The translations under genes were made by a program, and so were the position numbers. The notes under the pieces are model-generated. The model worked only from the letters and a program-made list of their open reading frames with translations, had not been told where the DNA came from and made no database searches. DNA of 38,649 bases from Kiritimatiellia bacterium (GTDB taxonomy: Bacteria; Verrucomicrobiota; Kiritimatiellia; RFP12; UBA1067): positions 1 to 38,649 of the forward strand of contig JAFSTA010000050.1 of NCBI GenBank assembly GCA_017450695.1, given 5' to 3'. Shown here piece after piece: positions 9,358 through 38,649 of this stretch (position 1 is the stretch's first letter; every line of letters begins with the position of its first letter).

Positions 9358-9686
9358 GCAATAGGATTTGCCGGATTTGCCGATTGCCTGTCAGTTGGCT
9401 TGGCAGGCCGGGGAAGCGTGGTAAGCCGGATGAGCCGGGTAGGCGTTGCGGTCGCGACGGGGCGCGTCCCTCCCCTTCTCCGCGTGTCCCTATCTTCTCA
9501 GCTTCTCAGACTCTCAGCTTTTCAGCTTCTCAACTGGCGCGAAGCGCCTCTTAGGGGCGCAGCCCCATTTAGGCCCGTAGGGCCACTTAGGCGGCACAGC
9601 CGCCACTTATCTCAGTTTCCCCGAAAGCCGACGGCGAGGGCGCCGTCGCTACGCAGCTGGCGGCGTGAACCGCCGCCAAATTTGTC
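9358..9686. repeat. Composite intergenic repeat locus 3, the most complete copy
   Basis: From left to right: 9-bp GGATTTGCC-type words (9364-9408); a four-unit period-9 AAGCCGGNT array (9414-9449); the R hairpin (9450-9469); a five-unit 8-bp CTTCTCAG array (9494-9533); four tandem mini-hairpins with 5-nt A/T spacers (9536-9609); and the D hairpin CGACGGCG-AGGG-CGCCGTCG (9629-9648) followed by a second stem, TGGCGGC/GCCGCCA. There is no protein-coding signal. Confidence 0.8.
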
Positions 9687-21375: not shown

Positions 21376-21744
21376 CCCATCTCTCCGTTTCCAATGATTT
21401 AACTGTCACCCCCGCCCTCGCACACTTCCTTCACCTAACCACCCAAGTAAAACCACCCAACTTTGAACACATGGGTAAGGCGTGTGCAGCAATGCGGTCG
21501 CGACGGAGCGCGACCCTCCCCATCTCTGCGTGAGGAAGGAAATGAAAGATCGGAAATGCGACAGGCAACACGCGATATGCACCCGTCGCATATCGCGTGT
21601 CCCAATTTTCACAGCTTCCGCGAAAGCCGACGGCGAGGGCGCCGTCGCTACGCAGCTGGCGGCGTGAGCCTCCTCTTCCTCGCCAAGTCAACTTAGGGGC
21701 GCAGCCGCCACTTATCTGCGTCTCAGCTGGCGCGAAGCGCCCCG
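21376..21744. repeat. Composite intergenic repeat locus 6
   Basis: It contains a reversed GTTCAAAGTTGGGTGGTT module (about 21436-21466), the R hairpin with a perfect 7-bp stem (21496-21515), a perfect 13-bp inverted repeat (21568-21580 with 21588-21600, 7-nt loop), the D hairpin (21628-21647), a hybrid mini-hairpin GGGGCGCAGCCGCC with CTTA spacers (about 21693-21714), and one CTCAG unit before GGCGC-GAA-GCGCC. No gene is seen. Confidence 0.8.
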
Positions 21745-24039: not shown

Positions 24040-24279
24040 ATGGCTCACCCTTGCCTGTCAGTAGAGCCGAGCCGGGTAAGCGTGTCAAGCCGGGTAAGCG
24101 GGTTCAGCTTCCCCGAAAGCCGACGGCGAGGGCGCCATCGCTACGCAACTGGCGCAAAGCGCGTCTTTCTGACCAAGTCAATTTAGGGGCGCAGCCGCCA
24201 CTTATCCGCTTCTCAGCTTCTCAGCCTCCCCGCTTCTCAGCTTCTCAGCTGGCGCGAAGCGCCCCCCCCGATTTCCCCC
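24040..24279. repeat. Composite intergenic repeat locus 7
   Basis: Between divergent genes: a period-9 AAGCCGGGT array (24069-24104), the D hairpin with one mismatch (24121-24140), a hybrid mini-hairpin with TTTA/CTTA spacers (about 24182-24204), a five-unit 8-bp CTTCTCAG array (24209-24248), and GGCGC-GAA-GCGCC. The pyrD promoter starts just after it. Confidence 0.8.
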
Positions 24280-38599: not shown

Positions 38600-38649
38600 T
38601 GGCGCCGCCAGAGGGATTCGGACCCCCGACCCGCGGATTAGAAATCCGC
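38600..38649 (-). tRNA. tRNA-Arg (anticodon UCU), 3' half
   Basis: On the minus strand the window ends inside the tRNA. The anticodon stem-loop is GCGGA-TTTCTAA-TCCGC with anticodon TCT; a 5-nt variable loop (GGGTC), the T arm GGGGG-TCCGAAT-CCCTC, acceptor strand TGGCGGC, G73 and an encoded CCA follow. The D arm and 5' acceptor strand lie beyond 38649. Position 55 is C rather than the near-universal T. Confidence 0.9.

Follow-up and report, generated by a model that had tools for sequence, protein, structure and literature searches.

A chain of DNA mini-hairpins in a Kiritimatiellia genome represents an apparently undescribed family of small dispersed repeats

The array of mini-hairpins at positions 9536-9609 of the window (the whole 38,649-nucleotide stretch of DNA that was analysed, which is contig 218 of the 5.0-Mb draft genome of a Kiritimatiellia bacterium) belongs to a family of small DNA repeats, scattered over one gut-bacterial lineage, that has apparently not been described before. 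The loops of its units, the strand that the arrays prefer and the pattern of their mutations suggest that the family lives and spreads as folded single-stranded DNA, not as RNA. The literature searched, in which subscription journals were mostly not covered, held no description of the family and nothing relevant on repeats of the Kiritimatiellae. From the array's own genome 1.68 Mb of sequence was read in all, and many of the counts below come from the first 0.84 Mb.

The first-pass annotation of the window had described four tandem hairpins at this locus, and their stems, loops, spacers and spacing all match that description: each of the four has a perfect stem and an N-N-A three-base loop, and they follow one another in an 18-nt register. 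The parts of the locus, with the evidence that places them, are as follows.

9494-9535, + strand: module of CTTCTCAG-type 8-bp tandem repeats with hairpin 1 as its last part; it represents a family of its own, joined to the array (repeat search)
9536-9548, + strand: mini-hairpin 1, GGCGC-GAA-GCGCC, the terminal hairpin of the CTTCTCAG module (contexts of its genome copies)
9549-9553, + strand: spacer TCTTA (sequence)
9554-9566, + strand: mini-hairpin 2, core unit A, GGGGC-GCA-GCCCC (sequence, anchored copies)
9567-9571, + strand: spacer ATTTA (sequence, anchored copies)
9572-9584, + strand: mini-hairpin 3, core unit B, GGCCC-GTA-GGGCC (sequence, anchored copies)
9585-9589, + strand: spacer ACTTA (sequence, anchored copies)
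9590-9604, + strand: mini-hairpin 4, core unit C, GGCGGC-ACA-GCCGCC (sequence, anchored copies)
9605-9609, + strand: 3' terminal spacer ACTTA of the array (equivalent position in anchored copies)

Hairpin 1 is not a regular member of the array and belongs to the neighbouring CTTCTCAG module. Its sequence, GGCGCGAAGCGCC, has 24 copies in 0.84 Mb of the own genome, 20 of them directly after the A(G/A)CT that ends CTTCTCAG modules and just 2 before TCTTA. Given that hairpin 1 is part of this module, the recurring element is the three-unit core at 9554-9609 (GGGGC, GGCCC, GGCGGC), which usually has CCAAGTCAACTTA before it. Lone 5-bp triloop hairpins are common, with 64 in the window against 53 +/- 8 in simulated sequence of the same dinucleotide content, whereas four in-register N-N-A hairpins at 18 nt are rare; the folding z of the array is -4.5 as DNA and -3.6 as RNA. 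The CTTCTCAG octamers number 186 in 0.84 Mb of the own genome, and tandem repeats of this type, found in the window at 9494-9535 and 24207-24250, are C-rich with a skew-linked orientation as in the arrays. A GTAG REP-like palindrome also adjoins the array, at 9630-9652 (GACGGCGAGGGCGCCGTCGCTAC, reverse complement GTAGCGACGGCGCC...), with 28 exact copies in 0.84 Mb, and none of 43 looser copies in the own genome lies in a called gene. Stretches of the DGEGAVAT type, for example DGEGAVATHANGDGALAV, which resemble in-frame GTAG REP sequence, occur in a Y1 transposase open reading frame on contig 137 of the same genome (locus L017).

Two contracted copies lie further along the window.

21693-21714, + strand: contracted copy TTAGGGGCGCAGCCGCCACTTA, the 5' half of unit A fused to the 3' half of unit C (exact sequence match)
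24183-24204, + strand: second contracted A/C copy TTAGGGGCGCAGCCGCCACTTA (exact sequence match)

These are the hybrids that had been read as recombinants of two units. They are real, with GGGGCGCAGCCGCC at 21696-21709 and 24186-24199, and a recombinant origin is supported in the form of unit-level deletions: TTAGGGGCGCAGCCGCCACTTA has two exact copies in 0.84 Mb, both within the window, and from their letters they look like the result of a deletion across the nine bases GGCGCAGCC that core units A and C have in common.

Units were sampled by taking all sequence delimited on both sides by A(C/T)TTA-type spacers, with no requirement for pairing. Among 419 such cores in 0.84 Mb, 244 are perfectly paired and 96 more have one mismatch, compared with 3 and 10 of 143 in the reversed sequence, and the two-unit pattern TTAGG..CCAYTTAGG..CCAYTTA has 120 matches in the own genome against none for its backwards control. 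The consensus unit is G-N3-C-GNA-G-N3'-C-ACTTA, with GNNA as an alternative loop and a length of roughly 16-20 nt. The spacers, the outer G.C pair, the closing C.G pair and the GNA or GNNA loop are near-fixed, and the inner stem is variable yet complementary. C.G closes the stem in 309 of 338 own-genome units and 125 of 126 units in relatives (434 of 464 together). Own-genome loops are GNA in 208 units and GNNA in 76 (284 of 338), those of relatives are GNA in 119 of 126, and one or other form is present in 403 of the 464 units, none of which has the inverted TN(N)C loop. Tetraloops are mostly GCCA, and GNRA occurs just 18 times among all 338 own-genome loops.

Unusually stable DNA mini-hairpins have d(cGNAg) or d(cGNNAg) loops with a C.G closing pair, and the array units, with their closing C.G pair and GNA or GNNA loop, match this d(GCGNAGC)-type motif. 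One DNA aptamer study reportedly uses a mini-hairpin DNA; to our knowledge such hairpins are treated as a biophysical motif and not as a dispersed genomic repeat family. The loops of the array units follow the DNA cGN(N)Ag rule and not the RNA GNRA rule. By nearest-neighbour folding, the GNA strand and its complement each reach about -24 kcal/mol.

The first-pass annotation had also claimed that different paired bases in each copy keep every stem intact, and this holds between unit types, where compensation is full: paired double changes across slots were observed 194 times against about 43 expected under independence. It does not hold within the later copies of one element, in which changes are mostly uncompensated. 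Stem changes without compensation, which had been named as evidence against the claim, are in part what was found: across 42 distinct A-B-C copies, 586 of 630 cells pair, 44 are mismatched and uncompensated, and 8 hold compensated double changes, compared with a mean of 2.0 and a maximum of 6 in 2000 shuffles. Mismatches of the G.T and A.C kinds are equally frequent (29 vs 27, binomial p 0.89). Given that copies of one element decay mostly without compensation, the pairing reflects the way in which units are made or spread, and does not by itself show a structural function at each locus.

With genes called by a simple in-house hexamer caller, none of 102 arrays in the first 0.84 Mb and none of 125 in the full 1.68 Mb of the own genome lies inside a called gene. 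Arrays were found between convergent genes in 26 cases, between divergent genes in 21 and between codirectional genes in 40, where they show no preference in facing along transcription (15 same vs 25 opposite, p 0.15). In a comparison with MITEs, which have terminal inverted repeats and target-site duplications, the flanks of the arrays show no more in common than a short, partial consensus, CCAAGTCAA upstream and TCtgC downstream. The orientation of the arrays follows replication-type GC skew, calculated from fourfold-degenerate sites only and with the effect of gene direction removed: of 90 arrays, 65 have their GNA strand on the side of negative skew (65:25, p 3e-5; by contig 34:13), as do 39 of the 47 with clear skew (39:8 at |z|>=3). 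This bias was seen in one genome, in which the 20 arrays read later, taken alone, divide 10:10 (4:9 at |z|>=2). For the leading strand, rpoC and the L2 gene indicate opposite skew signs. Both CTTCTCAG and the REP-like module have the same skew-linked bias, and arrays without other repeat modules nearby divide 21:11 (p 0.11); given this shared bias, the array may be hitchhiking in a co-oriented mosaic of repeats.

Across the class, the general unit pattern was found in 10 of 346 genomes, belonging to four genera; of about 257 genomes sampled from the rest of the phylum, none has it. Within the own genus, arrays went undetected in two of four species, all represented by draft genomes. The public records in which the array occurs bear the titles Kiritimatiellae, Lentisphaerae or Verrucomicrobia, and several are metagenome-assembled genomes from goat or sheep gut. 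Other species of the order have the same spacer with other stems, for example GTCGC-GAA-GCGAC ACTTA GGGGC-GAA-GCCCC ACTTA GGGCC-GAA-GGCCC, and the arrays of relatives usually have an oppositely oriented half upstream, so that opposite halves flank TAAGTNNACTTA. Lone hits in Pelagibacterales, Desulfobacteraceae, archaeal, Rubripirellula and Bacteroidales genomes lack paired stems and were set aside as chance-like or as unrelated repeats. A phage origin was likewise rejected: the ACTTA-unit pattern has no match in phage records or viral contigs, and the spacer-free unit pattern gave only chance matches in viral contigs, in no case with two adjacent stems that pair perfectly.

Of the 28 arrays that were examined in relatives, 17 lie within genes, in the sister genus and one other genus. 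These genes encode a glycyl radical enzyme, a xylulokinase-like enzyme, an NspC-type carboxynorspermidine decarboxylase and, with two array sites, a protein that combines HZS-alpha and FGE domains. Almost all cores in relatives (122 of 126) measure 13 nt, and with a 5-nt spacer this makes 18 nt, or six codons. The in-frame arrays encode LSGPSGLS...TLRGEAPLRAEGPL; given that, on our reading, the centre sequence is free of stops in this sense frame only, the shared frame needs no selection on the peptide. Homologues of solved structure show the array region to be an insertion, of 47 residues compared with 2 in 9eaf and 45 compared with 11 in 5vm1. At the NspC site, the array is long in genomes G072 and G069 and shorter in G066; in G068 and G074 the site holds unrelated short tandem repeats. 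At the HZS-type sites the number of units varies among species, one copy being a single hairpin, and in G075 such a site holds a different hairpin array with GATTTAA spacers. Such enzyme linkers are recurrent sites for hairpin repeats, and the sites of the sister-genus arrays are empty or hold other repeats in relatives. On contig 68 of G075 (locus L233), the mini-hairpin array in the same enzyme linker has GATTTAA/TTAAATC spacers with TTC/GAA loops, and the other site holds AAAGGTG heptamers that form an inverted repeat. A second in-frame palindromic coding element, approximately GGGAGGGNCGCAATT...GACGCAATNAATTGCGTCCCTCCC, was noted in an NspC-like enzyme of the sister genus (L149, 6687-8015, residues ~145-180), where the solved homologue 9eaf has a short loop only, and twice more in a Y1-like open reading frame of the own genome (listed with L018).

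The interpretation to which we incline, at slightly better than even confidence, is that the arrays are small non-autonomous DNA repeats whose origin, growth and dispersal all proceed through single-stranded hairpins at replication, and that they are selfish or neutral and not regulatory RNA. Its observed basis is the dispersal of the family in several lineages of the order, the compensated unit types, the differences by whole units at orthologous sites and the skew-linked orientation. At replication forks, where single-stranded DNA is exposed, the units would fold into hairpins of unusual stability, slippage and template switching at those hairpins would add, delete and re-perfect units, and the whole array would occasionally be copied to new places. 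No transposition event was seen at base-pair resolution; dispersal to new genes is not accounted for by slippage alone. It is very improbable that the arrays are purely local slippage products, hairpins grown by template switching in permissive DNA, that never moved between loci. Such an origin would fit the differing unit numbers at orthologous sites, the unrelated short repeats that the same linker carries in other species and the capacity of template switching to create and perfect hairpins (PMC8794818). However, the ordered units GTCGC, GGGGC, GGGCC or GGGGC, GGCCC, GGCGGC recur at many unrelated loci, which requires copying. A role of the arrays as transcribed RNA hairpins, in the stabilisation, processing or termination of messages, is also a distinctly unlikely explanation: the strong folding as RNA (-39 kcal/mol, z -3.6) and the proposal that REPs of other bacteria act in this way (PMC3733652) speak for it, but G.U-type mismatches are not in excess over A.C-type ones, GNRA loops are few, the arrays are not oriented toward genes and often occupy divergent intergenic positions, and there is no match in Rfam, whose families found nothing in the window except one tRNA. 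An RNA role is unlikely given the equal G.T and A.C mismatches, the DNA-type loops and the indifference to gene direction, and a role linked to transcription was rejected on placement and the wobble test. A truncated tRNA lies at the window edge (38603-38649, - strand).

It is a tentative possibility that the arrays are a modular mobile repeat of single-stranded DNA, in which a putative enzyme of host or element recognises the GNA mini-hairpin together with the ACTTA linker on one of the replication strands; such an enzyme would add units, remove them or move them to other places, with coding DNA keeping only the 18-nt, six-codon form; if so, one array family can lengthen enzymes in frame. It is rather unlikely that the arrays are REP-like substrates of a trans-acting single-strand HUH (Y1) transposase, such as RAYT, that recognises the same hairpin and linker. 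The hairpin with its unpaired conserved linker and the head-to-head halves around TAAGTNNACTTA recall the REP/BIME design, Y1_Tnp genes are present in all 22 genomes searched, the own-genome Y1 locus L017 has GTAG REP-like sequences, and the strand bias is compatible with single-strand mobility. However, every genome searched that has no arrays likewise has Y1 genes, the units lack a GTAG or CGTC tag, and no unit occurs in 87.6 kb around 31 Y1_Tnp loci of the 22 genomes, so that linkage to RAYT is rejected within the approximately 1.5 kb examined per side. It is improbable that the arrays are useful, conserved binding sites, like BIMEs, of a chromosome-organising or single-strand-binding protein; this would explain the near-invariant spacers and loops, the placement in intergenic mosaics and the orientation tied to replication-type skew, but not the patchy distribution, with none detected in two of four own-genus species, the decay of copies without compensation or the sister-genus arrays inside unrelated enzyme genes.

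It is an open question how REP-like repeats originate and what keeps their stems paired, and the answer often given is RNA function. Hundreds of natural units separate the possibilities here: they keep pairing and a DNA-type loop, pay no heed to RNA-type wobble or to the orientation of genes, and are placed in accordance with replication-type strand skew. The in-frame copies in conserved enzymes are a further case beside the Rickettsia and REP insertions, and show how hairpin repeats at the level of DNA can remodel proteins in linkers that are used recurrently.

Among known systems, REP/BIME elements form GTAG- and CGTC-tagged families, and GTAG REPs have been reported from the PVC superphylum (PMC3733652). 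As in these elements, a genome has numerous copies of the arrays, the palindromes are short, subfamilies differ by alternative stem residues that remain complementary, mosaics contain head-to-head pairs (opposite halves around TAAGTNNACTTA), and some copies lie within genes. Unlike REP/BIME elements, the array units lack a GTAG or CGTC tag and are flanked on either side by A(C/T)TTA-type spacers; their stems are of 4-6 bp, dissimilar hairpins follow one another in a chain in which the ACTTA spacer stays constant, the loops are GNA or GNNA, G.T is not in excess, and linkage to a RAYT gene was not found within the approximately 1.5 kb examined per side. The palindromic elements of Rickettsia are 105-146 bp palindromes with terminal inverted repeats and, like the arrays, place palindromic DNA both between genes and in frame within conserved enzyme genes, with one open reading frame throughout (PMC2229807); the array insert differs in being a chain of variable number of 13-nt hairpins with 5-bp stems and 5-nt spacers (18-nt units). 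Template-switch or quasipalindrome mutation creates and re-perfects hairpins and can give apparent compensatory change in one event (PMC8794818), but it is a process, whereas the array is a dispersed element, and the loop inversions that one version predicts are absent (0 of 464 units). In summary, the family is a variant of the small non-autonomous palindromic repeats, set apart from both the REP/BIME and the Rickettsia elements.
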